Position numbers and translations under genes: made by a program
NCBI RefSeq assembly: GCF_042453785.1
Contig: NC_091664.1
Span: 7,961,001-8,025,000 of the forward strand
DNA: 64,000 bases
Direction of reading: 5' to 3'
DNA from: Malus domestica
Lineage: Eukaryota; Streptophyta; Magnoliopsida; Rosales; Rosaceae
Shown: piece by piece, positions 11,175-59,312 of the stretch
Layout: each line of letters begins with the position of its first letter
How positions within the stretch are numbered: the stretch's first letter is position 1
Notes under the pieces: model-generated
Told to the model about the DNA's origin: nothing
Database searches by the model: none
What the model saw: the letters and a program-made list of their open reading frames with translations, nothing else

Positions 11175-11177
<3 letters not shown>

Positions 11178-11237
<60 letters not shown>

Positions 11238-12470: not shown

Positions 12471-12471
12471 G

Positions 12472-12870: not shown

Positions 12871-13055
12871 CTGGTATTGGGTTGAAGCGGGGACCGGAGG
12901 CGGTTCATTTCCTGCAGGAATGTTATGGAAGAAACGGTGGAGAGTGGGGAAATGGGCGGGACGAGCTGTTGCTTCATAATAATATCATCAACATCCGCCT
13001 CATTTACTGTTTTCTGGAAAACAATCAGGAAGAGTTGGGTCAGGACCCGGGGATT

Positions 13056-13178: not shown

Positions 13179-13201
13179 GGCTTCTGAACAAATTTTGAAC
13201 C

Positions 13202-13322
13202 AACAACTTTCTCCGATGAAGGTAGCAGTTGTATGATTAGCAACAAGCTTTGGTAACATGGTTTTACCGGTTCCAGGCGGACCATAGAGTAATATACACC
13301 ACGTGGGGGGATCTATTCCAAT
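13202..13322 (-). pseudogene. Captured fragment of proteasome ATPase RPT3 (Walker A region)
   Basis: The minus strand encodes QIGIDPP, a short diverged stretch, [12 protein letters not shown] and [10 protein letters not shown]. The order GIDPP / [13 protein letters not shown] / VANHTTAAF is that of 26S proteasome subunit RPT3 (S6B) rather than the other RPT subunits. The Walker A Lys is kept, but Walker B and the rest are absent. It is joined head to tail with the PTRHD1-like piece in one open frame, so an artificial chimeric protein could be read. Confidence 0.7.
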
Positions 13323-13435
13323 CTGGGCCAGGATCGACAATGGCGAAAGCTACAAAATGTTGCAGACGGTGGGTGCGGTGTCGATCGAGAGAAAAACGGG
13401 CCTGGGCTGGTGCGTTTTGTTGCACCTGGGCCTAG

Positions 13436-13457
13436 ACATATACACATATATATATTT

Positions 13458-13488
<31 letters not shown>

Positions 13489-13545
13489 GTAAATACATAA
13501 AACATGTATCTCTCTTTTTTTTTTTTTTTTTTTTTTTTTGTACAA
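13436..13545. repeat. Poly(T)/(AT)n tract right of the captured cluster
   Basis: Two poly(T) runs separated by AAATACATAAAACATG-like sequence close the cluster on the right. On the minus strand they are poly(A) runs, which could be relics of mRNA tails. Confidence 0.8.
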
Positions 13546-13734
13546 AGAAATTGTAATAGCATCAAAACTTTTAATAAAATTTCTTATTCTTTATTTTGAT
13601 GTGACTGAACTCGAATATTGAATGCTCGAGTTGCCTACGTACCCTTCCAAAGAAGAGATCAAGTCGTAACGTAGTTCAAAATGCATACATATTTTTTTTT
13701 GGGTATTTTCTTTTTGTGCCGTTTGCAGTTTTAA

Positions 13735-13915
13735 CTCATGCAGGCAAGGAGTGTTGGTGCCGTGTTGCAGTTTTAGCTCGTGCAGGCAAGGAGCGTTGGT
13801 GTCGCCTTTTATGCTCGTGCAGACCAGGAGCGTTGGTGTTGCCTTTTATGCTCGTGCAGACCAGGAGCGTTTGGTTCGTGCAGTTTAGGCTCGTGCGAAC
13901 AAGGAGCATTGTTGG
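13735..13915. repeat. Minisatellite of about 47 bp downstream of gag
   Basis: Four to five units share GCTCGTGCAG..CAAGGAGCGTTGGTGT. The array lies right after the gag stop codon in element sense. Confidence 0.75.
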
Positions 13916-13919
13916 TTCG

Positions 13920-15770
13920 TCAAGCGATCCGAGAGAGTTGTTCCTCGCAATCTTCATAGCAAGGAGCCTTGACCGCGTGATTGAAGAAGTCTTCGGGTAA
14001 AAAGTCGCGCATCGTGATGGCAACAGACGATCTTTGTGTCGTAATTTCATCATCTTCAACACGTTCACGTTGCTTTGAAGGTTGACAAGAGCTGCTTTGC
14101 CCCCTTTCCGATTGGCGGACTTGTGGAGGAGACGTATGCTTCTTGTGCAATTTCTTAGGAGTGACTTGAGTCCATCCTTCAATTTTGCTTGTCTTGGACG
14201 ATGCCCCCAGCGGTTGAGGTGAAAACTTTGAGTCGGAAGAGCCAGAAGTGAAGGTGGTATAGTTTGACTTCGCCACTTCGTCAAGATCTAGCTCGATGAT
14301 TCCTTTCTGAGCCAGCTTCATGATGAGATCTTTCAGCACGAAACATTTTTCTGTCGGATGACTGATGAAGCGGTGGAATTTACAGTACCTTGGACTGTCG
14401 GTGCGATTCATCTCTTCTGGCCGTTTGCACTCAGGCAAACCAATCACCTTCTTGTCCAACAGGTCATCTAGCATGGCAACCACATCAGAGTCGGGGAATG
14501 GATAAGTCTTCTCCTCAAGCTCCTTCAAAGTGCGTCTACGCGTCTCTTGATCACGAAAAGCTTCGGTTTGAATCGCCTTGCCTCGTGTGGATATTTTGAC
14601 GGGAGATGTGTTGACCGTCATCGCTTCCTTGGTGGGTTTCCATGCAACCTTTTCCACCTTTGTCCCAAGAGCTTTGTCGTTCTTGTAGTCGACGATCGGT
14701 TCTTTCTTCCCATGATGGGCGATGCTCAACTCCATGTCATGGGCGCGAGTGGCCAATTCCTCGAAGGTCCGCGGTTTAATGCCTTGAAGGATGTATTACA
14801 AACCCCATTGCATGCCTTGGATGCACATCTCGATTGAAGAGGTTTCCGAGAGCCTGTCTTTACAGTCGAGGCTTAGAGTGCGCCATCTGTTGATGTAGTC
14901 AATGACTGGCTCGTCCTTCCACTGTTTTATGCTCGTTAGCTCTAGCATACTCACAGTGCGGCGGGTGTTATAGAAGCGGTTGAGGAATTCCCTTTCCAAT
15001 TGCTCCCAGCTGTTGATGGACTCAGGCTCTAGGTCCGTGTACCACTCAAAGGCATTTCCTTTCAGCGAGCGCACAAACTGCTTGGCGAGGTAGTCTCCCT
15101 CCGTCCCCGCGTTGTTGCAAGTTTCGACGAAATGTGCAACGTGCTGCTTTGGGTTTCCTTTTCCATCAAACTGCATGAACTTTGGTGGTTGATAACCCCT
15201 TGGCATCCTTAGGGCATCAATCTTCTTGGAATAGGGCTTCGAGTAGAACAAGGAGGTATGTGAGCTCCCTTCGTACTGTGCCTTGATGGTGTTGGTGATC
15301 ATCTCCTGCAGCTGCTGGATAGAAAGAGATCCCATGAGTGCCGCTGCTTGGTCTGGCTCCGGCTTCCCATCGATTTTCTTCACCGGGGGTTCTTCATCTC
15401 CGCCAGCTCCTCCCTTTAGTGGATCATCCTCTGGGTCGGGTTTATCGCCGTCCTGCGCCTCCAGTCGGTTGACTAGTGCTGCAATTTGCAAGTCTTTTTC
15501 TTCCACAGTTCGGGTTAGCCTTGCGATCGCTTCATTCATTTGAGCCAGCTGCTCATCGATTGAAGTTGCTCCAATGGTCATGACTTGCATGGCTGAACTG
15601 TCGCTTGAATCGGCATCGGAGAGCATGGATTCAGAGTATTTCCTTGGGCTTTCCCCCCTTGGTGCCCTTAGTGAGGCTAAGGTGATCAAAGGCTCGTGCC
15701 TTGGGTGCTTTTGTTCCCTTGGCAGAGTTGATGCAGAGGTGAAAGAGGCGGCAGAAGTAGCTCTTGCCAT
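13920..15770 (-). pseudogene. Gypsy-type gag with one in-frame stop
   Basis: Starting at ATG 15768-15770 (MARATSAASF), the frame runs 617 codons to 13920. The N-terminal half has a coiled coil (EQLAQMNEAIARLTRTVEEK), then the retrotransposon gag domain: PPKFMQFDGKGNPKQHVAHF, FEWYTDL, SWEQLEREFLNRFY and a YINRWRTLSL helix. A TAA at 14796-14798 interrupts the frame, and the same frame resumes at once as YILQGIKPR. Relatives have a Leu codon there, so one T-to-A change would explain it. A zinc-finger-like CKFH..HPTEKC segment lies in the second half. The frame could also be extended upstream into the LTR without a convincing start. No protease follows. Confidence 0.88.
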
Positions 15771-15926
15771 GCTTTGAGTCGTGATGCCCAAAGTGACACC
15801 AGTTGCGACGAGGACGCTTTTGTTCTTTGCGCCGGTTGCGGAACAGTTTGAGCCTTCCTTGATGCCATTAATTTTGGAAGTGCGCTTGAATTTCTTGAAC
15901 GGAGAAAGAGATGAGAGGCAGAGATT

Positions 15927-15944
15927 GTCCCACTGGGCGTGCCA
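15927..15944 (-). other. Primer binding site of the LTR retrotransposon
   Basis: On the minus strand TGGCACGCCCAGTGGGAC lies three bases after the 5' LTR. The TGG start pairs with a tRNA CCA end, but I cannot say which tRNA supplies the rest. Confidence 0.6.
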
Positions 15945-15947
15945 ATT

Positions 15948-16840
15948 TGTGAACACGAAAAATTCCTGAAACGAAAGAGACAAGAAACGACGTGCACAAA
16001 CAAATATTTGTATTTGATGATTTTGGGTTACAATCTCTCTCTATTTTGATCCTCTGATTCGATCTCCGTAAGGTATTGATTTGTGGATGTTTCCTTGATC
16101 CAAGGGCCGTCGAGGCTTGATCTTGGATGAACTGTTGGAAGTTTCTTCAAGGGGTCGTGGGCTTGATCTTTGAAGGTGGATTTGAGCGGATCTTCAAAGG
16201 GGCTTTTGGGCTTGATCTTTGAAGAACAGTGACGAACGGATCTCCAAGGGCTTTTGGGCTTGATCTTGAAGAACAGTGATGAACGGATCTTCAAGGGCTT
16301 TTGGGCTTGATCTTGAAGAACGGTTGGATGTGTGGATTTGTCGACGTTGTTGATCCAAAGGGCCGTTGGGGCTTGATCTTGGATGAACGGATGATGAACG
16401 ATGGTGCTTTCTTCAAGGGCCGTCGGGGCTTGATCTTGAATTGGTGGATGGTTGATCCAAGGGGCCGTTGGGGCTTGATCTTGGAAGAACGATGAACGAA
16501 GAACGAAGAAGGCTTTCTTGATTCTTCGGGAACCTGGATGCTTGAGAGCTTCGGAGTTTCAAAGCTTCAGAGCTTCAAGGTGTAATATGAATTGGTTCCT
16601 TTTAAATGAATGAATTAGCCTTCTATTTATAGAATTTTCCAAGGCTTAATTTTGAATATAATATCCCAGATGAAATAAGTCGTTTCTGCCAGATGTTGAC
16701 ATGTGTCCTATTTGATGACTTTTCCAACTCATTTCAATTTTCGTTTAGTCACACGCTACGTGTAAAATTTATGTAATACATGAGCGTTGACACTTTGATT
16801 TATCGGTCAACATTTATTTACCGAAATTTCGATGTCTACA
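15948..16840 (-). repeat. 5' LTR (in element sense)
   Basis: It has the same 893-bp length and borders as the other LTR, with about ten single-base differences seen by eye. It has the same internal phrase repeats. Confidence 0.93.
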
Positions 16841-16845
16841 ATAAG

Positions 16846-32079: not shown

Positions 32080-32606
32080 CGTGGGGTTGGAAGTTTGCTC
32101 AAAACAGAGGAAGAAGACAAGTAAATGAAGTGGTTTATGCGTGTTCCAACTTTTAAGTAGGGATCGGAATATTTAAGTAGTGAAGGGTGGCTGAACGACA
32201 CTAAAGATGTTGTCGTCTTATGTGGGGAAAAGGCAAATTTGGAGTTGAACTCCTCACATTTTTTTTTTTTTTTTTTTTAAAATATATCGATATTTTTAGA
32301 TTAGAGAGAGGAGGTGTTCGGCTAAGTCATACAATGGGCAATCTAATTTGGCATTGAATTCGCCATTCACGATATTCAAACCTAATACCTCTTACTTTCA
32401 AGTGAAGAGGAATACTACCAGATCGTAGCACTAAACAACTGAACTCCTCACTCTTTTTGTATTCGCATTCCTATCTTCATGTCTTCTTGTGTATTTCACA
32501 AGGCCAAAGAGAAAAAAGTTGGAATATGATCCTTAACTAGGATTTTTTAATGATGGGAGTAATTAATGGTCTTGATTGACAAATTTGATTAGAGGGCTTC
32601 AACTTA

Positions 32607-33955
32607 CAACAACAACAACAACAACAAAGCCTTTTCCCACTAAGTGGGGTCGGCTATATGAATCCTAGAACGCCATTGCGCTCGGTTTTGTGTCATGTCC
32701 TCCGTTAGAACCAAGTACTCTAAGTCTTTTCTTAGAGTCTCTTCCAAAGTTTTCCTAGGTCTTCCTCTACCCCTTTGGCCCTGAACCTCTGTCCCGTAGT
32801 CACATCTTCGAACCGGAGCGTCAGTAGGCCTTCTTTGCACATGTCCAAATCACCGGAACCGATTTTCTCTCATCTTTCCTTCAATTTCGGCCACTCCTAC
32901 TTTACCTCGAATATCCTCATTTCCAATCTTATCATTTCTTGTGTGCCCACACATCCCACGAAGCATCCTCGTCTCCGCCACACCCATTTTGTGTACGTGT
33001 TGATGCTTCACCGCCCAACATTCTGTGCCATACAACATCGCTGGCCTTATTGCCGTCCTATAAAATTTTCCCTTGAGCTTCAGTGGCCTACGACGGTTAC
33101 ACAACCCGCCGGATGCACTCTTACACTTCATCTATCCAACTTCTATTCTATGGTTGAGATCTCTCTAATTCTCCGTTCTCTTGCATGATATATCCTAGGT
33201 AGCAAAAACGGTCGCTTTTTGTGATCTTCGCTAGATTGCTCCGATCATTAGTGTGGATAAGTATATAAATGGATATAGATAGGAAAGCAAACACAAGATG
33301 TACGTGGTTCACCCAGATTGGCTACGTCCACGGAATAGAGGAGTTCTCATTAATTGTGAAGGGTTTACACAAGTACATAGGTTCAAGCTTTCCTTTAGTG
33401 AGTACAGGTGAATGATTTAGTACAAATGACATTAGGAAATATTGTGGGAGAATGATCTCGTAATCACGAAACTTCTAAGTATCGGAATGTGGTATCGTCT
33501 TGACTTGCCTTATCTGTCTCACAGGTAGATGTGGCATCTTCTCTGGAAGTACTCTTCCTCCATCCAGGGGTGGTATCTTTAACTGGTGGAGATGCACAAG
33601 GTAATGTATCAATTTCACTTGAAGCTTACTTGTAGTTTCAGGCTTGGTCAAGCGCGATACAAACCATGTAGTAGGAGTCCCTCAAGTTGCCGAGCTAGGG
33701 GATTTGCTGAAAGAGGTGACAGACAAGGTAAGCAATCAGAGCTCCGGCTGATTGTTCACATTCTCCCTATCTTGCAGGCAGCATGAAGGATAAAGAGAAG
33801 AAAAATGAGAAGAGATGATATGGGATACTTTGTTCTGGATTCATTTTCATAAGGATTCGACGTGATCATGGAGTGCCGGTTGTCGACTACCTGACGCCCT
33901 CCCCCTCCTCCTTTATCCGGGCTTGGGACCGGCCATGTAAGACATAGGCGGAGTT
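32607..33955 (-). mobile_element. Chimeric RTE/LTR element, copy A (internally deleted, non-autonomous)
   Basis: On the minus strand it starts with the RTE 5' UTR (AACTCCGCCTATGTCTTACA...) for about 125 bp, jumps to the last ~600 bp of the cargo seen in copy B (about 47545-48150), and ends with ~640 bp of RTE 3' sequence and (TTG)n. A 17-bp direct repeat (32590-32606 and 33956-33972, TAGAGGGCTTCAACTTA) flanks it exactly. It therefore moved as a 1.35-kb unit, keeping the LINE's two ends but none of its enzymes. The RTE 3' part no longer encodes a continuous protein. Confidence 0.92.
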
Positions 33956-37837: not shown

Positions 37838-40800
37838 GGAAAAAGAAAAATTGTCCTGTCTGAGAAAAACATCATTTACAAGTTGTTTGTGATGAATCAA
37901 GTTAGCATTAATAAGCTTCAATTCATGGTTCAATCCCATAAAATGATGCACTGAAATTGTTTCGGAGTCCAATCACAAGAAAATATTCATGTTCTGAGTA
38001 GATAAAGCCCATTGACACAGATGGTTTCAGGACCTGATAATTGATATTCACTTGGCCACTAATATTTAACCTTCTCCTTCCCAAATCAAGAAACTTGAAC
38101 ATGATGAAAAGGAATGTTCTCCCATGTGTTGTTCAACTAATAATAAGCACTGCTTCAAAATAATAAGTTACTTGTTTAATTAAGATTCACTCATTTACTG
38201 ACACTCCATTCTGAAATGTAAACAAAAGCAAACACTTGAAGCTTATGACAGATATAGACTTAAAGAAGCTTATGATACAAAAGATGTATGTTTAGTATAA
38301 CCTTCTAGGCAAACTTCTGTACGTAAGTAGCATTCTGCAGCTGCAGACTTATTTCTAACGTTTAGCTGTAAATTTCATGCAATGGAGAAACATAAACATA
38401 AATTTTAGTATTCATTTAAGTTACAAAGATATTGACACTTGAAAATACCATAGACACACATTGAAAATACCATAGACACACATGCACAATTTATATTGAA
38501 ACTTGAATTTATTCATCTGAAAAAAAGAAGGCTCAAGTCAAATATATTGCAAAACTCATAAAGAGGTGCAATGTTTCTTTTACTCTTATTTACATTGATG
38601 GCCCTGATTTTTGTTAAAAAGAAACGCTTGAGATAAAACACATAAATGTCATAAAAATTTAAGAAATAAAGGCACCGACAGCATCGTACATGATGATTAA
38701 ACCCATATCTAAGATTTCTGTATGAGTTGGTCTAGTACAAATGATCCCCTTAATTTACACCTCCTAAAATCAAGGTTGTATTTGAAAATGGTCTCTATGA
38801 ACCTGCTTAACCTAATGTCCTAGTCAAAGTTAAAAATGGGAGTTCAATCCGCTCCACAAATGAAGTTCTTAGGAAACTCAAGCAAAATATATCATTCCAA
38901 AGATCATAGATTGAACTTATTATAGTTGCAAAGGCACCATTATAAGTTGTAAGTTATAACCAATCAAGGAAATGCCAACGTTCACAGACAATTAAGGCAG
39001 TACAGAGAGAATGGAAGTTGACAGTTATATTTTGAAAGGACAAGATGGCTTGAATAATACAACAATCATTATTTAGAGTGGGTAAATTAAATTTAATTCA
39101 ATTAAAAGATTGAGCCATAGTACTCACAGAAGCAAGCTCCAAGGTTGAGCAGTGTATATTATTCCCATGTTTCAATACCTATGTCAGAATATCATATAGA
39201 ACTCAGAAATAAACTAGTAAAGAGATGTTAGTAATTTAGAGAAAGCTTGTCCTAAAGGCTAAACCTGAATGAACTGGCTAGGAAGTTTCCCTTGAATGTC
39301 CTTATGTGGCATGCTAAAGTAGAACCCTTGCCTATTGTTAAACGGGAGTTTCAAATTGGGCAACTTGAAATCTTCACGATACTTGTTAGCAAGATTATGT
39401 ATAGCTGTTGATTCAAGATTGACAAAACATTGGCCTTATTACTTTATCTCAAATATAAGAAAACAAAAGACAAATTGAACATGAAGGGAAATGGACAGAA
39501 TTTTAATTGCATATGTAAAAAGAAAACACCTTCACTAGTATCACAAAATGATCTCCGTGCAATATCCAAGAGTCCATCGATTCCAGCTTTGACAGCAAAA
39601 CACTGCTGTGTGCGGGCTACAAATGAAACCCGTGCATGAAGCACATCCTCATCAATAACCTCTCCAATCCTGAAACAAATGAAGCTTCTTGATTTGCCAA
39701 ACAATGTATATACATCACACAACAAGCAAGAAACTTCAAACATGTACTTTCATGGCAATATGACAACTACTTTAGTACTCGTAGTTGAATTTCTTCCGCT
39801 TTATATGACTATCAATTAAATAAAGTTATTTTATGTAGCAATCCATGCAGAATTTATCATCAACTTCATCAGAAGTTAGACCCTAGCACTTGGGTTTGAC
39901 CATCCCTATCCAATTTAATGGAAATATGATAACTACTTTAGTGCTTGGGGTTGAATCTCTTAGACTGTATAATCCACTTGATCGGGTAAGTTGGACACTA
40001 ACACCTGAGGTTGAGTGCATGCCTCTGTAACATGCAGTGTTTCGGGTTGTAGGCAAGAGTCGCAAGACCATAGTCATGGTACCGAAATCATATAAAGAGA
40101 TTAAAGATATATTTGGAATTGGTTGAACCTAAACAAACCTCCCCCATATAAATGAGCATATTAAAACATGTAATTATGCCGTTTCCAGTGGAATATGCCT
40201 CTTATGTACGAGGAAAAGGTTAAATCAGACAATAAGAAAAAGATTGTAAAAGGAGGCAATTTGTTTTAATTAGTAACTGTAGTTAAGGATTTTTTTTGGT
40301 GAACCGTGAAGGGATCTTTTTATAAGGGTAGAACTGATGTACTTTCATATTGCAAAAAGAGGGGACAAAGGTGAATGTTTTGGAACATAATGGAAATATT
40401 TCGGTTGTGGTCATTTCCCAGAGAACTCCGCCTATGTCTTACATGGCCGGTCCCAAGCCCGGATAAAGGAGGAGGGGGAGGGCGTCAGGTAGTCGACAGC
40501 CGGCACTCCATGATCACGTCGAATCCTTATGAAAATGAATCCAGAACAAAATCGCGCTAAAGCTAGGGCGTCACCCGTAAGTGGCGCGCTGTGTGGCCTG
40601 AGCACAGTGATAAGTGAGCAAGGGTCGCTGTATCTCCATCGGCACCCGGATGCAGTGTTAAATGAGCAAGGGGGCCATAGAAACTTCTTTTCGAACGACT
40701 CCACTCAAAGTTGTTTGGGAGCATATGCTCCTATCAACTTTACCCGGGACACACAAAAGAAGTACTTTGATCCTATTAGACGGGGGAGGGTGAAGAAGCT

Positions 40801-43800
40801 AGGACAGAAGGGTAGAGTTCAAGAGAGCAAAATGCGTTTAGGAACGTGGAATATAGGAACCTTAACGGGAAAATCTATGGAAGTAGTGGAAGTTATGGTG
40901 AGGAGAAGGATAAATATTATGTGCCTACAAGAAACTAAGTGGGTTGGTAGTAAGGCAAAGGATCTAGAAAACTCAGGGTTTAAACTTTGGTATTCGGGCA
41001 CAAATAGAACGAGAAACGGTGTTGGCATCATCGTGGACAAGACCTTGGTACAAGATGTTGTAGATGTCAAGAGGGTAGGAGATAGAATCATGGCAATCAA
41101 GATTGTAATAGGACAAGAACTTATCAATGTGATTAGTGCGTACGCACCTCAAGTAGGGTTGGATACGAGTTCGAAGGAGAAATTTTGGGAAGATCTTGGA
41201 GACTTGGTGCAAGGAATTGCTCAGACGGAGAAGTTATTTATAGGAGGAGATTTAAATGGACACGTGGGCAGGGAGACAGGCAACTATGGAGGTTTTCATG
41301 GTGGCCATGGTTTTGGGGAGAGAAACGAGGATGGGGAAGCTATCTTGGATTTTGCAATGGCATATGATCTCTTCTTAGCCAACACCTTCTTTAAGAAGAG
41401 AGAAGAACATGTGATCACCTACAAGAGTGGGTCGTCAAAAACACAAATAGATTTTCTTCTAATGAGGAAAGGGGATCGTATAACTTGTAAGGATTGCAAA
41501 GTTATACCAGGAGAGAGCGTGGCTAATCAACATCGCTTGTTGGTGATGGATGTACATATCAAAAGAGTAAGACAAAAGAACAAGACTTGGAAGTGCCCAA
41601 GGACTAGATGGTGGAATCTAAAAGAAGAAAAACAAGTCATTTTCAAAGAGAAGGTAATCACCCAATGTGTGTGGGATAGAGAGGGGGAAGCTAGCCAAAT
41701 GTGGGATTCCATGGCTAGTTGTATCCGAAAAGTAGCAAAAGAGGTATTAGGAGAGTCCAAGGGCTTTGCCCCACACCAAAAGGAATCTTGGTGGTGGAAT
41801 GAGGAGGTACAAACAAAGGTGAAGGCTAAGAAGGAATGTTGTAAAACCTTATACAAGGAGAGGACTGATGAAAATGGTGAAAGGTATAGAAAAGCGAAGC
41901 AAGAGGCGAAGAAAGCTGTCAGAGAAGCTAAGTTAGCGGCTTACGACGATATGTATAAACGACTAGATACCAAAGAAGGAGAGTTGGATATCTATAAACT
42001 ATCTAGAGCAAGGGAAAAGAAGACAAGGGACCTAAACCAAGTGAGGTGCATCAAGGATGAGGATGGAAAGGTTCTTGCTACAGAGAACGCGGTTAAAGAC
42101 AGATGGAGAGGTTATTTTCATAATCTTTTCAATGAAGGACATGAAATGAGTGCTTCTTTAGGGGAGTTGAGTAACTCAGAAGAGTGTAGAAACTACTCTT
42201 TTTATCGTCGAATCCGGAAGGAAGAAGTGGTTGTAGCTTTGAAGAAGATGAAGCATAAAAAAGCAATAGGCCCAGACGATATACCAATCGAAGTGTGGAA
42301 ACTTTTGGGAGAGACAGGTATAACATGGCTCACTGACCTTTTCAATAGGATTTTGAAAACGAAGAAGATGCCAAATGAGTGGCGAATGAGCACTTTGGTG
42401 CCTATCTACAAGAATAAGGGCGACGTACAAAATTGCATGAACTATAGGGGTATTAAGCTAATGAGTCATACAATGAAGCTCTGGGAGAGAGTCATTGAGC
42501 ATAGATTGAGGCAAGAGACACGGGTTTCGGACAACCAATTCGGGTTCATGCCAGGGCGCTCAACCATGGAGGCAATCTATCTCTTACGAAGATTGATGGA
42601 AAGATATAGAGATGGGAAAAAGGATTTACACATGGTCTTTATAGATTTGGAAAAAGCGTATGATAGGGTCCCAAGAGACATTCTTTGGAGGATTTTAGAG
42701 AAGAAAGGAGTACGAGTAGCATATATCCAAGCTATAAAGGATATGTATGAAGGAGCAAAGACTGCCGTAAGAACTCATGAAGGACAAACCGAAAGCTTTC
42801 CCATAACTGTAGGATTACATCAAGGCTCATCCTTAAGCCCTTACCTTTTTGCGTTGGTAATGGATGAGTTAACACGACATATTCAAGATGATATTCCTTG
42901 GTGTATGCTTTTCGCAGACGATATAGTGTTGATAGATGAAACTCAGGAAGGGGTAAATGCAAAGCTTAACCTTTGGAGAGAAGTGTTGGAATCTAAAGGT
43001 CTTCGCCTAAGCCGATCAAAGACAGAATATATGGAGTGCAAGTTCAGTGCAAATGGAGGCCAAAACGAGTTAGGGGTGAGGATCGGAGATCAAGAAATAC
43101 CAAAGAGCGACCGTTTTCGTTACCTAGGATCTATCTTGCAAAAGAACGGAGAATTAGATGGAGATCTCAACCATAGAATACAAGCTGGATGGATGAAGTG
43201 GAAGAGTGCATCCGGCGTGTTGTGTGACCGCCGTATGCCACTGAAGCTCAAGGGAAAATTTTATAGGACGGCAATAAGGCCGGCGATGCTGTATGGCACA
43301 GAATGTTGGGCGGTGAAACATCAACACGTACACAAAATGGGTGTAGCGGAGATGAGGATGCTTCGTTGGATGTGTGGGCACACGAGAAAGGATAAGATTA
43401 GGAATGAGGATATCCGGGGTAAAGTAGGAGTAGCCGAAATTGAAGGAAAGATGAGAGAAAATCGGTTACGGTGGTTTGGACATGTGCAAAGAAGGCCTAC
43501 TGACGTTCCGATTAGAAGATGCGACTATGGGACAGAGGTTCAGGGCCGAAGGGGTAGAGGAAGACCTAGGAAAACTTTGGAAGAGACTCTAAGAAAAGAC
43601 TTAGAGTACTTGGATCTAACGAAGGACATGACACAGGATCGAGCACAATGGCGTTCTAAGATTCATATAGCCGATCCCACTCAGTGACTTGGATTTTCCA
43701 AGTCTCCAACCGAGAAGTTTTCCTCACTCGGGAAATTAAGGGAACACTACCCCAACCTACATGCTCCACTCAGAAAGCTTCAACATACAAGCTTTAACAA

Positions 43801-46800
43801 AAGAAAATTCAAAGAACTTAGCGAAGAAGGCTTTGGTGTATTTAACACAATACGTTGAAATGAAGGAAAGCTTATTTATTGATATCCCCGATAAGCTACA
43901 AATATGTACATATACATGAGTCAAAATAAGCATACAAGAGGGAGCCTTCACAAAGGTTGCTTAGGAGAAGTCTCAGCAGTCGGTAGAGCCCCAGAAAGAG
44001 AAGGCACCGGAGGGGGATCATTTGGAGCCTCAGTACTGGACAGAACCCTAGAAGGAGGAGGCATCAGAGGTTGATCATTTGGAGCTTCGTTACGCGGTAC
44101 AGCCCCAGAAGACGAAGGCAATAAATGCCTTTGGAACAAACCCACAAATCTCTGATGATCAAGTAAAACCTGACCATCAGTTTCCTTCATCTGGTCAAGC
44201 TTCCTCTTCATGTTTGTAGCATAGTCATGTGCGAGCCGGTGCAACTGTTTATTCTCATGCTTGAGCCCTCTAATCTCCTGTTTGAGACTCATCACTTCAG
44301 CCGCCAATGATTCAACTTGGCGGGTTCGAGCAAATAGGCGTTGGGCCATATTAGACACAGAACCTGCACACTGAACACTGAGAGCCAGCGAATCCTTAAC
44401 AGCTAACTCATCAGACCGTTTGGAAAGTAGTCTATTATCTTTGGGAGTGAGAAGGTTCCTGGCCACCACCGCAGCGGTCATATCATTCTTCATCACGGAA
44501 TCCCCAACGGTAAGAGGACCAGTAGGGGAGACGAAGGATGGGCGCCATATGTTGTCTGGAGAAGGCGGGGCTGCCTCTTCAACAAGGTTCAAGTCAAAAC
44601 GACGGTCGGAGGGGCCAGACATTTTCAAAGGTGTTGAAGAGAGAAGAGGTCGGACAAATCAAGATCTTAGAAGTGCAAGAATGAAGCTTCTACTGGTGGA
44701 GATTCAAGTGTGCTTTGGAACTTAATGCCAGCCCCTATAAAAATCTGCACTCGACGAAGCTTCAGAAATCGAAGAGGCGCCTGCTCAGAAATCGAAGAGG
44801 CGTTTGCTTTCTCAAAAGCTGGGCTGCTTAGAGATCACGAGGGTTGATCTCAGAAATCGAAGAGGCGTTTGCTTTCTCAAAAGTTGGGTTGCTCAAAGAC
44901 CACGAAGGCCGATCTCAAAAATCGAAGAGGCGCTCGCTTTCTCAAAAGCTGGGCTCCTCAGAGACCACGAGGGCCGATCTCAGAAATCGAAGAGGCACCT
45001 ACTTTTCCAGCCTTTTCCAGCCTTGTCAGCACCTGTCACACGCACACTCAGTTTTGCGGAAATTATGGGCATTCTGTCAAAGACTTTTGGGGAAGTAGAA
45101 AACACATGAATCTTACTGTTCAATCACCCACTTCCCACACGCAACAATAGCTCATGGGTACCACAAATAACTTTGCCAAAGTTGAGCACGTGAAGCTTGC
45201 AGCTCCCACTACATCGCTCTGACCAAGAAGGGTAAAAGAATAGCAAAGAAACAGCACTAACAAAGTTTAGACCCATAAATTTTGAAGGTCTAGCTACCAT
45301 ATTATTACCCACAAGGGTAAAGGAACAGTACCACTGCTGGATAATTGGAAAGTCCCTGTGTGTCAACCTCTGTGCTTCGTGGCAAGGTAGACTAGCAAAC
45401 ATGCCCAACCTTTACTCACATTCGAGAAAACACTCCCAATAAGATTGCTTGCTCCAAAATCGAAGAGGCACCGTCCTCCGAATCTCGAGAGCCAGACTCC
45501 CAACATGACTACTTTCTTAAAAATCGAAGAGAGGGTAAAGGAACAGTACCATTGCTGGATAATTGGAAAGTCCCTGTGTGTCAACCTCTGTGCTTCGTGG
45601 CAAGGTAGACTAGCAAACATGCCCAACCTTTACTCACATTCGAGAAAACACTCCCAACAAGATTGCTTGCTCCAAAATCGAAGAGGCACCGCCCTCCGAA
45701 TCTCGAGAGCCAGACTCCCAACATGATTACTTTCTCAAAAATCGAAGAGACACTGCTCCCCGAATCTCGAGAGCCAGACCCCCAGCATGATTGCTTTCTC
45801 AAAAATCGATGAGGCATCGTTCTCCGAATCAATCGAAGAGGCGCTCGCTTTCTCAAGAGCTGGGCTGCTCAGAGACCACGAGGGCCGATCTCAGAAATCG
45901 AAGAGGCACCTACTTTTCTAGCCTTGTCAGCACCTGTCACACGCACACTCAGCTTAGCAGAAATTATGGGCATTCTGTCGAAGACTTCTGGTGAAGTAGA
46001 AATCACATGAATCTTACTGTTCAATCACCCACTTCCCACACGCAACAATAGCTCATGGGTACCACAAATAACTTTGCCAAAGTTCTCTGCCAAAGTTGAG
46101 CACGTGAAGCTTGCAGCTCCCACTACATCGCTCTGACCAAGAAAGGTAAAAGAATAGCAAAGAAACAGCACTAACAAAAGTTTAGACACATAAATTTTGA
46201 AGGTCTAGCTACCACATTATTACCCACAACTGTAAAGGAACAGTACCACTGCTGGATAATTGGAAAGTCCCTGTGTGTCAACCTCTGTGCTTCGTGGCAA
46301 GGTAGACTAGCAAACATGCCCAACCTTTACTCACATTCGAGAAAACACTCCCAATAAGATTGCTTGCTCCAAAATCGAAGAGGCACCGTCCTCCGAATCT
46401 CGAGAGCCAGACTCCCAACATGACTACTTTCTCAAAATCGAAGAGAGGGTAAAGGAACAGTACCATTGCTGGATAATTGGAAAGTCCCTGTGTGTCAACC
46501 TTTGTGCTTCGTGGCAAGGTAGACTAGCAAACATGCCCAACCTTTACTCACATTCGAGACAACACTCCCAACAAGATTGCTTGCTCCAAAATCGAAGAGG
46601 CACCGCCCTCCGAATCTCGAGAGCCAGACTCCCAACATGATTACTTCCTCAAAAATCGAAAAGACACTGCTCTCCGAATCTCGAGAGTCATACCCCCAGC
46701 ATGATTGCTTTCTCAAAAATCGAAGATGCATCGTTCTCCGAATCTCGAGAGCCAGATACCACAGACCACTTTTTCAAAGTGCTCTGACAGAGTTAAAACA

Positions 46801-49800
46801 TGTGAAACTGGCAGCTCCCACTACCGTGCTATGACCAAGCAGGGTAAAGGAATAGCATTACTACTTGTTGTTAGGGAGACTCCTATATATGTCGACCTCC
46901 ATCCCCAACGGACAGGCAGACCTGCAAAAATGCTCAACCCTTCATCATATCTGAGAGGGCACTCCCAACGAAGCCTTTCGAAATATTCAGCTTTCTTTCC
47001 CCCCGATAATACCTCTGCAAACAAGCTATACTAGAGCAAGAATATCTCATATCATCAGGGTTAAAAGCAAGAGTATCCCATATCATGCTTTTTCCCTGTC
47101 TTTTCTTGTGGCCTTGTTTTTACCTGCAAGACAAGGAGAAAGAGAGCAATCAGTCAGCACTTGGAATCAAGCTTCCAGCCAGGAACTGACTGCCTGGAAC
47201 CCCTTACCTGATTACTTACCTGGCATTGCTCTCGAGTACTCATCTTCAACATCTTATGTTTCCAGGGAAGATTCCGCATCTGCTTGAGGAACAGATAGGG
47301 CAAGTGCGAAGGATACAAGGAAGCATGTGGAGACAAGCGTAACAGCACACGTGCCGATACATTCATTACTCTGTCAAACGCAAAAGTATCCCATATCAGC
47401 AGGGTGGAACGTACTCTAGATTTGATGGACTTGTTTTGACCCTCAAATTCTTCAGTCGGCCTTATACTCTGGAGGAAACCAGAAAACCCTCCAGCTCAGT
47501 TCAAGAATAAGCCTGTGGAAAGTTACTTCTTCAAAAGCAAAAGTATCTCATATCATCTCTTTTCATTTTTCTTCTCTTTATCCTTCATGCTGCTGCAAGA
47601 TGGGGAGAAGGTGAACAATCAGTCGGAGCTTTGATTGCTTACCTTGTCTGTCACCTCTTTCAGCAGACCCCCTAGCTCGGCGACTTGGGGGACTCCTACT
47701 ACATGGTTTGTATCGCGCTTGACCAAGCCTGAAACTACAAGTAAGCTTCAAGTGAAATTGATACATTACCTTGTGCATCTCCACCAGTTAAAGATACCAC
47801 CCCTGGATGGAGGAAGAGTACTTCCAGAGAAGATGCCACATCTACCTATGAGACAGATAAGGCAAGTCAAGACGACACCACACTCCGATACTTAGAAGTT
47901 TCGTGATTACGAGATCATTCTCCCACGATATTTCCTAATGTCATTTGTACTAAATCATTCACTTGTACTCACTAAATGAGAGCTTGAACCTATGTACTTG
48001 TGTAAACCCTTCACAATTAATGAGAACTCTTCTATTCCGTGGACGTAGCCAATCTGGGTGAACCACGTACATCTTGTGTTTGCTTTCCTATCTCTATCCA
48101 TTTATATACTTATCCACACTAATGACCGGAGCAATCTAGCGAAGATCACAAAAAGCGATCGTTTTCGCTACCTAGGATCTATCTTGCAAGAGAACGGAGA
48201 ATTAGATGGAGATCTCAACCATAGAATACGAGCTGGATGGAAAGAGTGCATCCGGCGTGTTGTGTGACCGTCATAGGCCACTGAAGCTCAAGGGAAAATT
48301 TTATAGGACGGCAATAAGGCTAGCGATGTTGTATGGCACAGAATGTTGGGTGGTGAAGCATCAACACGTACACAAAATGGGTGTAGCGGAGATGAGGATG
48401 CTTCGTGGGATGTGTGGGCACACGAGAAAGGATAAGATTGGGAATGAGGATATCCGAGGTAAAGTAGGAGTAGCCGAAATTGTAGGAAATATGAGAGAAA
48501 ATCGGCTCCGGTGATTTTGAACATGTGCAAAGAAGGCCGACTGACGCTCCGGTTCGAAGATGTGACTACGGGACAGAGGTTCAGGGCCGAAGGGGTAGAG
48601 GAAGACCTAGGACAACTTTGGAAGAGACTCTAAGAAAAGACTTAGAGTACTTGGATCTAACGGAGGACATGACACAAAACCGAGCGCAATGGCGTTCTAG
48701 GATTCATATAGCCGACCCCACTTAGTGGGAAAAGGCTTTGTTGTTGTTGTTGTTGTTGTTGTTGGTCATTTCCCAGAGGATGCCTGGACTAATTTGGCCA
48801 CTTAATTTGATCCTATTTGGATATTAGAATTTATTGAACAAAACATATGAAGAAAGTTGAGGCTCCACCATAAAACCAATTGGCAATATGGGAAGTAGCC
48901 CAACTTACTTATAAGCCCATGCAAGATCCCTCCTCCCATCAATGTGGGACTCATTCTCAACAACATATTCCAGTGCCAAATTCAAATGAGTTAGGGATGT
49001 CAGAGAAACAAATTTACAAATGATCCACCAGGACTATAGAAGCTTGGAAGCAAACCTCTTTCTAATGGCAGCATACTTCTCATTTTCACATACAGACTGG
49101 TAAACATTTGCAAGAAGAAAACACTTTGCATCTTTAAGAACCTGAGATTTTACGAAACATTGATACTTTGGATCATGTTTTGAGCACTGTAAAATTTGTC
49201 TATGTGTTGGAAAGAAAATAATGCTTGACATCGACATCTGTGTAAAGTGATTTTTACCTTTGAGAGTAAAGGCAAGGCATCTAGAGCAGTCTTCAGAAGA
49301 ATGATACTTGAAACCAACACTTGGCTTTTTCTAGCACAATCAACACCCACAACTTTGTTTGTAATTTTCTTTGGCTTGAAGCAAAAGTGACAAAGCACCC
49401 TATCTGCATGAGCACATACACAACTCCACTCGTTCATGATATGAATAGATAGATTTACTGTATTAAGGCAAAACTTTCCTCTGCTTTCTTCTACCCTCTT
49501 ACCACTCTCTTTTGGAAATTTACGCAGAACCTGAGCTAGTCCAAAGAACAGCTGTTCGTTGCTCATGAGCTCATCCTAAAATCAAATATTAAGGAGACTT
49601 AGGATCGTAAAACTATTGCTGCAAAATACAATATCCATCTCAGGAGCTTCAAGATTCAGAACTTTATATGTATTCTAAGAGGATACAAAGTAGACATTAT
49701 CATTGTATTCTTGCTTTTTCATGTATAACCATGCCCAAAAAATAAACACAAAGTCTGCCCAACCAACTTTGCAATTCAAATAACATGATATTTTTTCATT

Positions 49801-52456: not shown

Positions 52457-52950
52457 TCTCTCCTTTGCTTCAACGAGTTTGTATCGCGCGCCAGCTTCTG
52501 TTCCGGCCGAGGGTGCTACTTATATACACGCGACTGTTGCTCGGGTCGCGTGTCGCGTGCGCAGTGAGCGAAGTAAAAAACGACACTCGCTCACAGTTTC
52601 TGCGAAGTGTCGTTCACAGGCGTGAGTTGAAATAGTTTTGATCTAAGGAACAGATTTCTGCCAAATTGCAGTGCATTTTTCAAGTTCAGCTTCTCCAAAT
52701 TATTCCAAAACCACAAATTCACAAAACTCTTTATATATTCTTCATCATACATGTGAAGAATTATCAAGCAACACTCATATGAGCTAATTCCTTATTACCA
52801 AACAATCAAATCTTGATCTTTTTGGACACTTTTGGAGTTCGCATCAGAGAATTAATTCTTGTAAAGAGTAACTCGAGAAATCGCAACCCTATTCACTTAT
52901 TTAATACAAATTTATTATTTTGTACACGTTTTCTTGTTTCATTGGTTTTT

Positions 52951-53995
52951 AGATTTGGAAAAAGCGTATGATAGGGTCCCAAGAGACATTCTTTGGAGGA
53001 TTTTAGAGAAGAAAGGAGTACGAGTAGCATATATCCAAGCTATAAAGGATATGTATGAAGGAGCAAAGACTGCCGTAAGAACTCATGAAGGACAAACCGA
53101 AAGCTTTCCCATAACTGTAGGATTACATCAAGGCTCATCCTTAAGTCCTTACCTTTTTGCGTTGGTAATGGATGAGTTAACACGACATATTCAAGATGAT
53201 ATTCCTTGGTGTATGCTTTTCGCAGACGATATAGTGTTGATAGATGAAACTCAGGAAGGGGTAAATGCAAAGCTTAACCTTTGGAGAGAAGTGTTGGAAT
53301 CTAAAGGTCTTCGCCTAAGCCGATCAAAGACAGAATATATGGAGTGCAAGTTCAGTGCAAATGGAGGCCAAAACGAGTTAGGGGTGAGGATCGGAGATCA
53401 AGAAATACCAAAGAGCGACCGTTTTCGTTACCTAGGATCTATCTTGCAAAAGAACGGAGAATTAGATGGAGATCTCAACCATAGAATACAAGCTGGATGG
53501 ATGAAGTGAAAGAGTGCATCCGGCGTGTTGTGTGACCGCCGTATGCCACTGAAGCTCAAGGGAAAATTTTATAGGACGGCAATAAGGCCGGCGATGCTGT
53601 ATGGCACAGAATGTTGGGCGGTGAAACATCAACACGTACACAAAATGGGTGTAGCGGAGATGAGGATGCTTCGTTGGATGTGTGGGCACACGAGAAAGGA
53701 TAAGATTAGGAATGAGGATATCCGGGGTAAAGTAGGAGTAGCCGAAATTGAAGGAAAGATGAGAGAAAATCGGTTACGGTGGTTTGGACATGTGCAAAGA
53801 AGGCCTACTGACGTTCCGATTAGAAGATGCGACTATGGGACAGAGGTTCAGGGCCGAAGGGGTAGAGGAAGACCTAGGAAAACTTTGGAAGAGACTCTAA
53901 GAAAAGACTTAGAGTACTTGGATCTAACGAAGGACATGACACAGGATCGAGCACAATGGCGTTCTAAGATTCATATAGCCGATCCCACTCAGTGA
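52951..53995 (+). pseudogene. Truncated RTE reverse transcriptase with a nonsense mutation
   Basis: The frame starts at the equivalent of [11 protein letters not shown] and contains the FADD motif. A TGA at 53507-53509 replaces the Trp codon after GWMK in copy B (one G-to-A change); the same frame then continues to 53995. The endonuclease and the front of the reverse transcriptase are absent, so it is inactive. Confidence 0.92.
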
Positions 53996-54255
53996 CTTGG
54001 ATTTTCCAAGTCTCCAACCGAGAAGTTTTCCTCACTCGGGAAATTAAGGGAACACTACCCCAACCTACATGCTCCACTCAGAAAGCTTCAACATACAAGC
54101 TTTAACAAAAGAAAATTCAAAGAACTTAGCGAAGAAGGCTTTGGTGTATTTAACACAATACGTTGAAATGAAGGAAAGCTTATTTATTGATATCCCCGAT
54201 AAGCTACAAATATGTACATATACATGAGTCAAAATAAGCACACAAGAGGGAGCCT

Positions 54256-54930
54256 TCACAAAGGTTGCTTAGGAGAAGTCTCAGCAGTCGGTAGAGCTCC
54301 AGAAAGAGAAGGCACCGGAGGGGGATCATTTGGAGCCTCAGTACTGGACAGAACCCTAGAAGGAGGAGGCATCAGAGGTTGATCATTTGGAGCTTCATTA
54401 CGCGGTACAGCCCCAGAAGACGAAGGCAATAAATGCCTTTGGAACAAACCCACAAATCTCTGATGATCAAGTAAAACCTGACCATCAGTTTCCTTCATCT
54501 GGTCAAGCTTCCTCTTCATGTTTGTAGCATAGTCATGTGCGAGCCGGTGCAACTGTTTATTCTCATGCTTGAGCCCTCTAATCTCCTGTTTGAGACTCAT
54601 CACTTCAGCCGCCAATGATTCAACTTGGCGGGTTCGAGCAAATAGGCGTTGGGCCATATTAGACACAGAACCTGCACACTGAACACTGAGAGCCAGCGAA
54701 TCCTTAACAGCTAACTCATCAGACCGTTTGGAAAGTAGTCTGTTATCTTTGGGAGTGAGAAGGTTCCTGGCCACCACCGCAGCGGTCATATCATTCTTCA
54801 TCACGGAATCCCCAACGGTAAGAGGACCAGTAGGGGAGACGAAGGATGGGCGCCATATGTTGTCTGGAGAAGGCGGGGCTGCCTCTTCAACAAGGTTCAA
54901 GTCAAAACGACGGTCGGAGGGGCCAGACAT
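54256..54930 (-). CDS. Antisense-ORF protein in chimeric element C
   Basis: An intact 224-aa frame (ATG 54928-54930) that appears identical in protein sequence to the copy in element B, although silent base changes exist (for example near 54297 and 54399). Same coiled-coil and Pro/Ser tail. That the protein is unchanged while the adjacent LINE frame has a stop is suggestive, but the copies are young. Confidence 0.75.
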   Translation of the reverse strand: MSGPSDRRFDLNLVEEAAPPSPDNIWRPSFVSPTGPLTVGDSVMKNDMTAAVVARNLLTPKDNRLLSKRSDELAVKDSLALSVQCAGSVSNMAQRLFARTRQVESLAAEVMSLKQEIRGLKHENKQLHRLAHDYATNMKRKLDQMKETDGQVLLDHQRFVGLFQRHLLPSSSGAVPRNEAPNDQPLMPPPSRVLSSTEAPNDPPPVPSLSGALPTAETSPKQPL

Positions 54931-55636
54931 TTTTAAAGGTGTTGAAGAGAGAAGAGGTCGGACAAATCAAGATCTTAGAAGTGCAAGAATGAAGCTTCTA
55001 CTGGTGGAGATTCAAGTGTGCTTTGGAACTTAATGCCAGCCCCTATAAAAATCTGCACTCGACGAAGCTTCAGAAATCGAAAAGGCGCCTGCTCAGAAAT
55101 CGAAGAGGCGTTTGCTTTCTCAAAAGCTGGGCTGCTTAGAGATCACGAGGGTTGATCTCAGAAATCGAAGAGGCGTTTGCTTTCTCAAAAGTTGGGCTGC
55201 TCAAAGACCACGAAGGCCGATCTCAAAAATCGAAGAGGCGCTCGCTTTCTCAAAAGCTGGGCTCCCCAGAGACCACGAGGGCCGATCTCAGAAATCGAAG
55301 AGGCACCTACTTTTCCAGCCTTTTCCAGCCTTGTCAGCACCTGTCACACGCACACTCAGTTTTGCGGAAATTATGGGCATTCTGTCAAAGACTTCTGGGG
55401 AAGTAGAAAACACATGAATCTTACTGTTCAATCACCCACTTCCCACACGCAACAATAGCTCATGGGTACCACAGATAACTTTGCCAAAGTTCTCTGCCAA
55501 AGTTGAGCACGTGAAGCTTGCAGCTCCCACTACATCGCTCTGACCAAGAAGGGTAAAAGAATAGCAAAGAAACAGCACTAACAAAGTTTAGACCCATAAA
55601 TTTTGAAGGTCTAGCTACCATATTATTACCCACAAG

Positions 55637-56980
55637 GGTAAAGGAACAGTACAACTGCTGGATAATTGGAAAGTCCCTGTGTGTCAACCTCTGTGCTTCG
55701 TGGCAAGGTAGACTAGCAAACATGCCCAACCTTTACTCACATTCGAGAAAACACTCCCAATAAGATTGCTTGCTCCAAAATCGAAGAGGCACCGTCCTCC
55801 GAATCTCGAGAGCCAGACTCCCAACATGACTACTTTCTTAAAAATCGAAGAGAGGGTAAAGGAACAGTACCATTGCTGGATAATTGGAAAGTCCCTGTGT
55901 GTCAACCTCTGTGCTTCGTGGCAAGGTAGACTAGCAAACATGCCCAACCTTTACTCACATTCGAGAAAACACTCCCAACAAGATTGCTTGCTCCAAAATC
56001 GAAGAGGCACCGCCCTCCGAATCTCGAGAGCCAGACTCCCAACATGATTACTTTCTCAAAAATCGAAGAGACACTGCTCCCCGAATCTCGAGAGCCAGAC
56101 CCCCAGCATGATTGCTTTCTCAAAAATCGATGAGGCATCGTTCTCCGAATCAATCGAAGAGGCGCTCGCTTTCTCAAGAGCTGGGCTGCTCAGAGACCAC
56201 GAGGGCCGATCTCAGAAATCGAAGAGGCACCTACTTTTCTAGCCTTGTCAGCACCTGTCACACGCACACTCAGCTTTGCAGAAATTATGGGCATTCTGTC
56301 GAAGACTTCTGGTGAAGTAGAAAGCACATGAATCTTACTGTTCAATCACCCACTTCCCACACGCAACAATAGCTCATGGGTACCACAAATAACTTTGCCA
56401 AAGTTCTCTGCCAAAGTTGAGCACGTGAAGCTTGCAACTCCCACTACATCGCTCTGACCAAGAAAGGTAAAAGAATAGCAAAGAAACAGCACTAACAAAA
56501 GTTTAGACACATAAATTTTGAAGGTCTAGCTACCATATTATTACCCACAACTGTAAAGGAACAGTACCACTGCTGGATAATTGGAAAGTCCCTGTGTGTC
56601 AACCTCTGTGCTTCGTGGCAAGGTAGACTAGCAAACATGCCCAACCTTTACTCACATTCGAGAAAACACTCCCAATAAGATTGCTTGCTCCAAAATCGAA
56701 GAGGCACCGTCCTCCGAATCTCGAGAGCCAGACTCCCAACATGACTACTTTCTCAAAATCGAAGAGAGGGTAAAGGAACAATACCATTGCTGGATAATTG
56801 GAAAGTCCCTGTGTGTCAACCTTTGTGCTTCGTGGCAAGGTAGACTAGCAAACATGCCCAACCTTTACTCACATTCGAGACAACACTCCTAACAAGATTG
56901 CTTGCTCCAAAATCGAAGAGGCACCGCCCTCCGAATCTCGAGAGCCAGACTCCCAACATGATTACTTCCTCAAAAATCGA
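55637..56980. repeat. Higher-order tandem repeats in copy C
   Basis: Four units of about 217 bp in the same arrangement as in copy B, with few differences. The repeat number is the same in the two copies. Confidence 0.85.
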
Positions 56981-59312
56981 AGAGACACTGCTCTCCGAAT
57001 CTCGAGAGCCAGACCCCCAGCATGATTGCTTTCTCAAAAATCGAAGAGGCATCATTCTCCGAATCTCGAGAGCCAGATACCACAGACCACTTTTTCAAAG
57101 TGCTCTGACAGAGTTAAAACATGTGAAACTGGCAGCTCCCACTACCGTGCTATGACCAAGCAGGGTAAAGGAATAGCATTACTACTTGTTGTTAGGGAGA
57201 CTCCTATATATGTCGACCTCCATCCCCAACGGACAGGCAGACCTGCAAAAATGCTCAACCCTTCATCATATCTGAGAGGGCACTCCCAACGAAGCCTTTC
57301 AAAATATTCAGCTTTCTTTCCCCCCGATAATACCTCTGCAAACAAGCTATACTAGAGCAAGAATATCTCATATCATCAGGGTTAAAAGCAAGAGTATCCC
57401 ATATCATGCTTTTTCCCTGTCTTTTCTTTTGGCCTTGTTTTTACCTGCAAGACAAGGAGAAAGAGAGCAATCAGTCAGCACTTGGAATCAAGCTTCCAGC
57501 CAGGAACTGACTGCCTGGAACCCCTTACCTGATTACTTACCTGGCATTGCTCTCGAGTACTCATCTTCAACATCTTATGTTTCCAGGGAAGATTCCGCAT
57601 CTGCTTGAGGAACAGATAGGGCAAGTGCGAAGGATACAAGGAAGCATGTGGAGACAAGCGTAACAGCACACGTGCCGATACATTCATTAGTTTGTCAAAA
57701 GCAAAAGTATCCCATATCAGCAGGGTGGAACGTACTCTAGATTTGATGGACTTGTTTTGACCCTCAAATTCTTCAGTCGGCCTTATACTTTGGAGGAAAC
57801 CAGAAAACCCTCCAGCTCAGTTCAAGAATAAGCCTGTGGAAAGTTACTTCTTCAAAAGCAAAAGTATCTCATATCATCTCTTCTCATTTTTCTTCTCTTT
57901 ATCCTTCATGCTGCTGCAAGATGGGGAGAAGGTGAACAATCAGTCGGAGCTCTGATTGCTTACCTTGTCTGTCACCTCTTTCAGCAGACCCCCTAGCTCG
58001 GCGACTTGGGGGACTCCTACTACATGGTTTGTATCGCGCTTGACCAAGCCTGAAACTACAAGTAAGCTTCAAGTGAAATTGATACATTACCTTGTGCATC
58101 TCCACCAGTTAAAGATACCACCCCTGGATGGAGGAAGAGTACTTCCAGAGAAGATGCCACATCTACCTATGAGACAGATAAGGCAAGTCAAGACGACACC
58201 ACACTCCGATACTTAGAAGTTTCGTGATTACGAGATCATTCTCCCACAATATTTCCTAATGTCATTTGTACTAAATCATTCACTTGTACTCACTAAATGA
58301 GAGCTTGAACCTATGTACTTGTGTAAACCCTTCACAATTAATGAGAACTCTTCTATTCCGTGGACGTAGCCAATCTGGGTGAACCACGTACATCTTGTGT
58401 TTGCTTTCCTATCTCTATCCATTTATATACTTATCCACACTAATGACCGGAGCAATCTAGCGAAGATCACAAAAAGCGATCGTTTTCGCTACCTAGGATC
58501 TATCTTGCAAGAGAACGGAGAATTAGATGGAGATCTCAACCATAGAATACGAGCTGGATGGAAAGAGTGCATCCGGCGTGTTGTGTGACCGTAGTAGGCC
58601 ACTGAAGCTCAAGGGAAAATTTTATAGGACGGCAATAAGGCTAGCGATGTTGTATGGCACAGAATGTTGGGTGGTGAAGCATCAACACGTACACAAAATG
58701 GGTGTAACGGAGATGAGGATGCTTCGTGGGATGTGTGGGCACACGAGAAAGGATAAGATTGGGAATGAGGATATCCGAGGTAAAGTAGGAGTAGCCGAAA
58801 TTGTAGGAAATATGAGAGAAAATCGGCTCCGGTGATTTTGAACATGTGCAAAGAAGGCCGACTGACGCTCCGGTTCGAAGATGTGACTACGGGACAGAGG
58901 TTCAGGGCCGAAGGGGTAGAGGAAGACCTAGGACAACTTTGGAAGAGACTCTAAGAAAAGACTTAGAGTACTTGGATCTAACGGAGGACATGACACAAAA
59001 CCGAGCGCAATGGCGTTCTAGGATTCATATAGCCGACCCCACTTAGTGGGAAAAGGCTTTGTTGTTGTTGTTGTTTCTTGTTTCATTGGTTTTCAGGAAA
59101 AAAAGATAACTGGCTGAGTTATAAGCATGAGAAAGTGAGTTGCTGGTAAATATAAAGAAAATCAGTAAAGCTGGGTTTATTGTTAATAGGTGAGCAAACA
59201 TTAGTTTGTACGTACTCAATATTGGGAAGAAGAAATTATAACAGGATTTTCTTACCAACCCACACCAGCAACATGAAGGGTTCAAGACCTATACAGAATC
59301 TTTACAATTGCA

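Follow-up and report, generated by a model that had tools for sequence, protein, structure and literature searches.

How does a long interspersed nuclear element (LINE) come to enclose several kilobases of a long terminal repeat (LTR) retrotransposon, and does the product move as one unit? The question is raised by a locus in the apple genome, lying within a stretch of 64,000 nucleotides (the window) from Malus domestica (contig NC_091664.1 of assembly GCF_042453785.1, positions 7,961,001 to 8,025,000 of the forward strand). Positions 40424-48764 of the window hold an RTE-type LINE with a single open reading frame (ORF). Behind it come 4.46 kb of foreign DNA and, after these, another LINE 3' end, which carries a (TTG)n tail. 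This chimera is a real mobile family, which inserts whole at new sites with target duplications of the LINE type. As a full explanation, we consider it probable that the element is an autonomous RTE LINE whose standard form consists of a LINE body, the pol-to-3'LTR region of a Retand-like LTR element and a second LINE 3' end, and that this form arose stepwise.

Layout of the composite element

The element is enclosed by a 16-bp target duplication, TGGTCATTTCCCAGAG, which is present on both sides; the left copy occupies 40408-40423, and the right copy, at 48763-48778, shares two bases with the last TTG. Among 506 mismatched pairs of flanks the longest match was 11 bp. A preliminary description of this locus had recognized a full LINE ORF within a perfect 16-bp duplication, and had given the unit as 40408-48778; those bounds take in both copies of the duplication, while the element proper begins at 40424. 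The LINE body (40424-43687, plus strand) consists of a short 5' leader, whose start is common to 12 of 23 copies examined, and an ORF of 1052 amino acids (40529-43687) that is open throughout and contains endonuclease and reverse transcriptase domains. At the left junction (43687/43688) the LINE gives way to the cargo, which runs on the plus strand from 43688 to 48150. A second LINE 3' segment follows at 48149-48727, 92.2% identical to 43101-43686, so that the repetition of the LINE 3' end reported earlier is borne out, and the plus-strand unit closes with a tail (48728-48764) made up of GGAAAAGGCTTTG and (TTG)n, with (TTG)9 at 48738-48764.

Judged by its ORF content, tail and duplications, the window element is an RTE-clade LINE. 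No further ORF lies upstream of the endonuclease-reverse transcriptase frame, target duplications vary in length (11-22 bp in 16 of the 23 copies) and are accompanied by 5' truncation, and the tail has the form stated for flowering-plant RTE LINEs, which end in (TTG)n or (TTGATG)n according to the accessible part of PMC3747384. When the LINE protein was compared by sequence with solved structures, LINE-1 ORF2p came out on top, followed by an RNA-directed DNA polymerase (8c8j) and R2 proteins, and the proteins closest to it are those of other plant LINEs. A protein from the catfish Silurus asotus also stands among the top matches (48% identity over 85%) and outscores many plant LINEs.

A mobile family across the apple genome

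Both junctions were searched for over an assembly of 651 Mb in 19 contigs, with at most two mismatches and with reversed patterns as a control. The left junction was found at 4127 places and the right junction at 2349, against 0 for the reversed patterns; the second figure is a lower bound, since the pattern is off by 1-3 bases in 10 older loci with such a junction. A 401-bp query across the left junction was matched over its full length by all 40 scored matches (scores were given to 40 of 1200 candidates), 28 of them at the top score. Twenty of these 40 were fetched and, together with the three copies in the window, form the set of 23, a sample of the family's young end. All 22 copies compared share an identical left junction and have the right junction as well, in L027 with one base changed; because the copies had been selected by their left junction, the right junction alone provides an independent test. 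Mean pairwise divergence among the copies compared is 0.52%, with a minimum of 0.03%.

An own duplication of 14-22 bp flanks 15 of the 23 copies, L022 among them, and one of 11 bp flanks L020. The 5' end at 40424 is kept in 12 copies, and all 12 have duplications of 11-22 bp. The LINE ORF is complete, free of stops and frameshifts, in the window copy and in 6 of the 20 fetched copies (L011, L012, L014, L015, L020 and L025); a single stop is present in L013 and likewise in L023, the frame is interrupted in L026 and L027, and the remaining fetched copies are truncated. The mobile chimeric family with an intact enzyme that had been proposed from the window is thus found in the very search suggested for it, and the junctions are, in this assembly, far from confined to one locus and its segmental duplicates. 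An assembly artefact or a segmental duplication would account for the oddity of the layout and for nothing else. Such an origin is ruled out, to the point of being vanishingly improbable, by the thousands of junction places, by unrelated flanks and by the separate duplications; moreover, a protein 100% identical to that of the cargo ORF, whose named record comes from Malus baccata, heads a cluster at 90% identity with 2492 members.

How usual the chimera is was gauged from listings on contig C1. In the first 21.32 Mb, a LINE tail lies 4001-5046 bp downstream on the same strand for 42 of the 55 exact left junctions listed, against a single case in each of two controls (opposite strand and upstream). 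No exact left junction lies ahead of 38 of the 80 listed tails, so mutated, truncated or cargo-free copies are common too. Counted from the other end of the element, an exact left junction follows 14 of 18 exact LINE 5' ends at a distance of 3252-3254 bp, and at three more (4649676, 13633821 and 13692370) the tail lies 8.0-8.3 kb away by subtraction, which is the spacing of the chimera. That spacing is therefore seen at 17 of the 18, the eighteenth (21617640) lying past the tail listing, and the spacing of about 3.3 kb that a plain LINE would have was not seen among the C1 exact 5' ends assessed.

Five older copies fetched at the left junction retain LINE sequence over 384 bp or more, with an identity of 97.3-99.0%. 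The best 20 matches to the A-type 3' end with its tail comprised ten chimera ends, four older leader-bearing forms and six that were cargo-free within the roughly 3 kb fetched; no young full-length plain LINE was among them. The LINE 5' end itself was found at 397 places (reversed-pattern control 4), a number that is not comparable with the 4127 left junctions, as older subfamilies may differ in their 5' leader. Exact left junctions are scattered along C1 from 1.7 to 32.4 Mb. If 4-5 kb downstream of each left junction are assigned to the family, its share would, as an estimate, be roughly 2-3% of the genome.

The cargo and its antisense reading frame

The cargo looks like the part of a Retand-type LTR element that runs from pol to the 3' LTR. 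Retand elements, as characterized in the available portion of PMC11963269, contain antisense ORFs and tandem repeats between pol and the 3' LTR, along with a TRP28 domain. Both kinds of feature are present in the cargo, which has no pol by which the lineage might be confirmed. A coiled-coil-like ORF, listed at 226 amino acids, occupies 43948-44628 on the minus strand, with a TATA-like TTTTTATAGGGG, spotted by eye, upstream of it; tandem repeats, whose units measure about 64 and 217 bp, occupy 44784-46756, within a duplication of about 925 bp. An LTR-like stretch, from TGGTTTGTATC to GATCACA, then extends over 47704-48150 (plus strand), and the right junction coincides with its end. Related LTRs are carried by L046 and by L029, where the LTR has a TG start, begins TGTTTGTACC, ends in GATCACA and is followed by a leader. 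The earlier view that no LTR had been left in the chimera is accordingly superseded. That said, the mobile unit is not bounded by two LTRs and a 5-bp duplication: there is one LTR-like stretch, and duplications of 11-22 bp lie at the LINE ends. Set beside the account of Retand in the accessible text of PMC11963269, the chimera shares the region between pol and the 3' LTR with its antisense ORF and repeats, whereas it lacks gag, pol and a second LTR, moves as a LINE and has no TRP28 domain (PF04195) in the antisense ORF, at least in a domain scan with E values up to 1.

A relative of the cargo is found in the window itself, an LTR element on the minus strand at 7412-16841. The cargo aligns with the minus strand of this element in colinear blocks covering about 1.6-1.7 kb of its 4.46 kb, namely 866 bp at the antisense ORF with 86% identity, blocks of 405 bp (73%) and 153 bp (78%), and some smaller ones; over half of the cargo finds no counterpart in this element. 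The kinship with this element (then given as 7412-16840) had been noticed before and stands, with the correction that the LTR element is on the minus strand. Its gag ORF (15983-14796, minus; Retrotrans_gag, E 4e-16) lies on that strand, so the cargo runs in the sense direction of the LTR element, and the coiled-coil-like ORF, at 10239-10913 plus in the LTR element, is antisense in both. This element was rejected as the donor of the cargo LTR: the local alignment is weak, with a score of 31 against 29 for the other strand, and the element is a relative of the cargo and not its source.

Between the antisense ORF and its LTR-element homologue, the ratio of nonsynonymous to synonymous substitution rates (dN/dS) is 0.37, as against 1.16 and 1.65 in the two wrong frames, which argues that the ORF has been constrained, either in LTR elements or since. 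Within the family, the ratio of nonsynonymous to synonymous singletons is 0.52 in frame and 0.76 and 0.80 out of frame, shared sites being too few for use; the LINE ORF gives 0.41. No stop interrupts the antisense ORF in any of the 20 fetched copies, an observation that fits the youth of the family as well as it fits selection. The best 120 of 2089 protein matches to this ORF are all named Malus, one cluster being 100% identical. A more ambitious reading would have the antisense ORF with its TATA-like motif, the tandem repeats and the LTR serve as an accessory gene and control sequences that aid the spread of the LINE; the chimera, having displaced its plain ancestor, would then be an autonomous non-LTR element of a new kind. 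We regard this reading as unlikely.

Template jumps and a probable stepwise origin

Spread of the chimera by target-primed reverse transcription is well supported, since the tail, the duplications and the 5' truncations are typical of that process. Going by known biology, the second LINE 3' segment probably supplies the start signal. The TS SINE (short interspersed nuclear element) has about 100 bases of 3' end in common with an RTE LINE, in the available part of PMC3747384. The LINE reverse transcriptase would recognize the 3' end at about 48149-48764, prime there and read across the cargo until it reached the sequence that encodes it, and the cargo would thereby travel in cis.

The LINE machinery also jumps templates, as shown by L022 (2832-9120). 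Here a complete tRNA-Gln(CTG), with a CAA leader and a short trailer (Rfam tRNA, 69 bits), is joined to a 5'-truncated chimera copy at LINE position 42593, and one 18-bp duplication encloses both. The fusion looks like a newborn SINE and shows a route by which SINEs could originate. L024, L028 and the window copy at 32606-33955 contain internal jumps where short matches occur; in the last of these, the first 127 bp of the LINE 5' end are fused to cargo position 47540 at a CAAA match and the left junction is missing.

For the composite as a whole, the idea that an LTR element simply inserted itself in a LINE was discarded: the LINE restarts 586 bp upstream of the point where it broke off, and there is one LTR-like stretch only. 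We infer an origin by template jumping, and the older relatives L039, L043, L046 and L049 indicate that the composite probably formed in steps and not, as first proposed, in one template-switching event. These copies continue from the same LTR end through some 50 bp of the LTR-element leader into a longer LINE 3' part, which begins at about 42829. On this scheme, a piece of an LTR element that finished with its LTR, and initially also with the leader of about 50 bp, would first have been linked to the 3' part of a LINE; loss of the sequence between two CAAA matches would then have produced the present right junction from the leader-bearing forms; reverse transcriptase copying such an RNA would have jumped onto a LINE RNA near the 3' end of the latter, creating the left junction; and the composite would finally have displaced the plain LINE. 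In L030 (1530-1967), the LTR end is separated from the LINE 3' segment by about 440 bp of unrelated repeated sequence. At the left junction of L052, CAGTGG is followed by CTTGG and the LINE part ends 2 nt inside the tail; five other older copies have CAGTGA there, like the window copy.

We favour a stepwise origin that involved one template jump or more, and regard recombination at the DNA level as its serious rival. An LTR retrotransposon might have inserted in a LINE near 43101, with unequal recombination or deletion between LINE copies adding a second LINE body at 43687; the resulting DNA would subsequently have been transcribed and have spread as a LINE. The right junction does lie at an LTR-like end, as insertion would predict, and the short matches at the junctions (CAAA; ACTTAGYGG) would also suit DNA repair; in the older copies, however, it is the LTR leader and not the LINE that directly follows the LTR end, and template jumping is demonstrated for the family by L022. 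On balance the DNA-level route seems rather unlikely.

Several observations weigh against the stepwise, autonomous chimera that we prefer. No duplication was found in seven of the 23 copies (L009, L010, L014, L017, L018, L019 and L021), and the 11 bp of L020 do no more than equal the maximum among mismatched flank pairs. A wider search around L014 and L019 turned up matches of 11 and 13 bp lying 803 and 1845 bp upstream, which were not counted as duplications. These seven copies have a clean 5' break; other modes of end joining or later rearrangement are possible. Close plain LINE relatives, which are needed as parents, were not found. The order of the steps is read from a small number of loci, and a single rearranged locus, L046, provides the microhomology at the left junction: there ACTTAGCGG, in a stretch that is itself at a breakpoint, precedes a related CTTGG module and agrees in 8 of 9 bases with ACTTAGTGG, the usual LINE end. 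Finally, cargo plus LINE 3' end starts exactly at 43688 in L051, L053 and L054, and could therefore have been mobile on its own first.

This last point leads to another account of the origin, in which cargo and LINE 3' end formed a non-autonomous element with a natural 5' end at 43688, mobilized by the LINE in trans, and a later jump from that end to LINE RNA gave rise to the autonomous chimera. The L051/L056 unit, enclosed by an 18-bp match that shares three bases with the element start, agrees with it, as does L053/L055, which has the same start base and ends in (TTG)n. The start at 43688 was, however, imposed by the search pattern and so gives no proof of a natural 5' end; there are only four exact places, one of which (L052) is a chimera variant, and L053 is without a clear duplication, while the end of L054 was not found. 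We hold this account possible but doubtful. Since the rival origins concern only how the composite arose and share the reading of a mobile family, the confidence given to each overlaps with that given to the others.

Known systems and neighbouring elements

LINE chimeras as such are already known; an autonomous family with a fixed LTR-element part was not found in searches of the open-licence literature, which brought up no account of a plant LINE whose standard structure includes LTR-element cargo, in keeping with the novelty claimed in the preliminary description. Internally deleted derivatives of non-LTR elements are known, as search listings for PMC3414825 and PMC6740152 indicate. The window copy at 32606-33955, L024, L028 and L048 retain both ends but have lost part of the middle, and in this they are like the SINEs and short derivatives built from LINE 5' and 3' ends in the accessible account of PMC3747384; all derive from the chimera except L048 (1129-1553), which joins a LINE 5' end to a 3' end without cargo inside a 14-bp duplication. 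With the plant RTE LINEs and SINE partners covered by the same portion of PMC3747384, the chimera shares one endonuclease-reverse transcriptase ORF, the (TTG)n tail and variable duplications; unlike them, it normally contains 4.46 kb of DNA from an LTR element and has its 3' end in duplicate.

A parallel for the fusion itself comes from the available text of PMC2104539, which reports 33 two-part fungal chimeras and one three-part chimera from Magnaporthe, and three-part ones in mouse, all by template switches. There too several transcripts are fused per insertion, with duplications of 14-16 bp, but each of those chimeras is a lone retrogene copy whose LINE part lies on the 3' side, whereas the apple chimera keeps its enzyme and multiplies itself. 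Having kept the enzyme, it has become the form at nearly every intact 5' end examined, with a junction at thousands of places, and it demonstrates a way for a retrotransposon to acquire genes and regulatory DNA from an element of a different class. HODOR, a 9.7-kb apple repeat, is placed at putative centromeres in the accessible part of PMC13334179; by this described location, it would seem to differ from the chimera, whose left junctions spread along C1 over the range given above. The duplicated LINE 3' ends flank the cargo in the fashion of LTRs and may mislead element finders. One LINE clade did surface among apple LTR-element predictions, as far as the available text of PMC11197308 goes, and LTR-like flanking repeats around the cargo may, as a guess, be one reason.

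The window holds three copies of the chimera family. The second (52946-59082, plus strand) is 5'-truncated, starting at about the equivalent of 42638, and has its own 20-bp duplication; the third, on the minus strand at 32606-33955, has an internal deletion from LINE position 40550 to cargo position 47540 and an 18-bp duplication of its own. The scanned ORFs of the window LTR element showed the gag domain but no pol domain. At 12870-13340 (minus strand) this element also has an ORF containing an AAA ATPase motif, perhaps a captured piece of a host gene.

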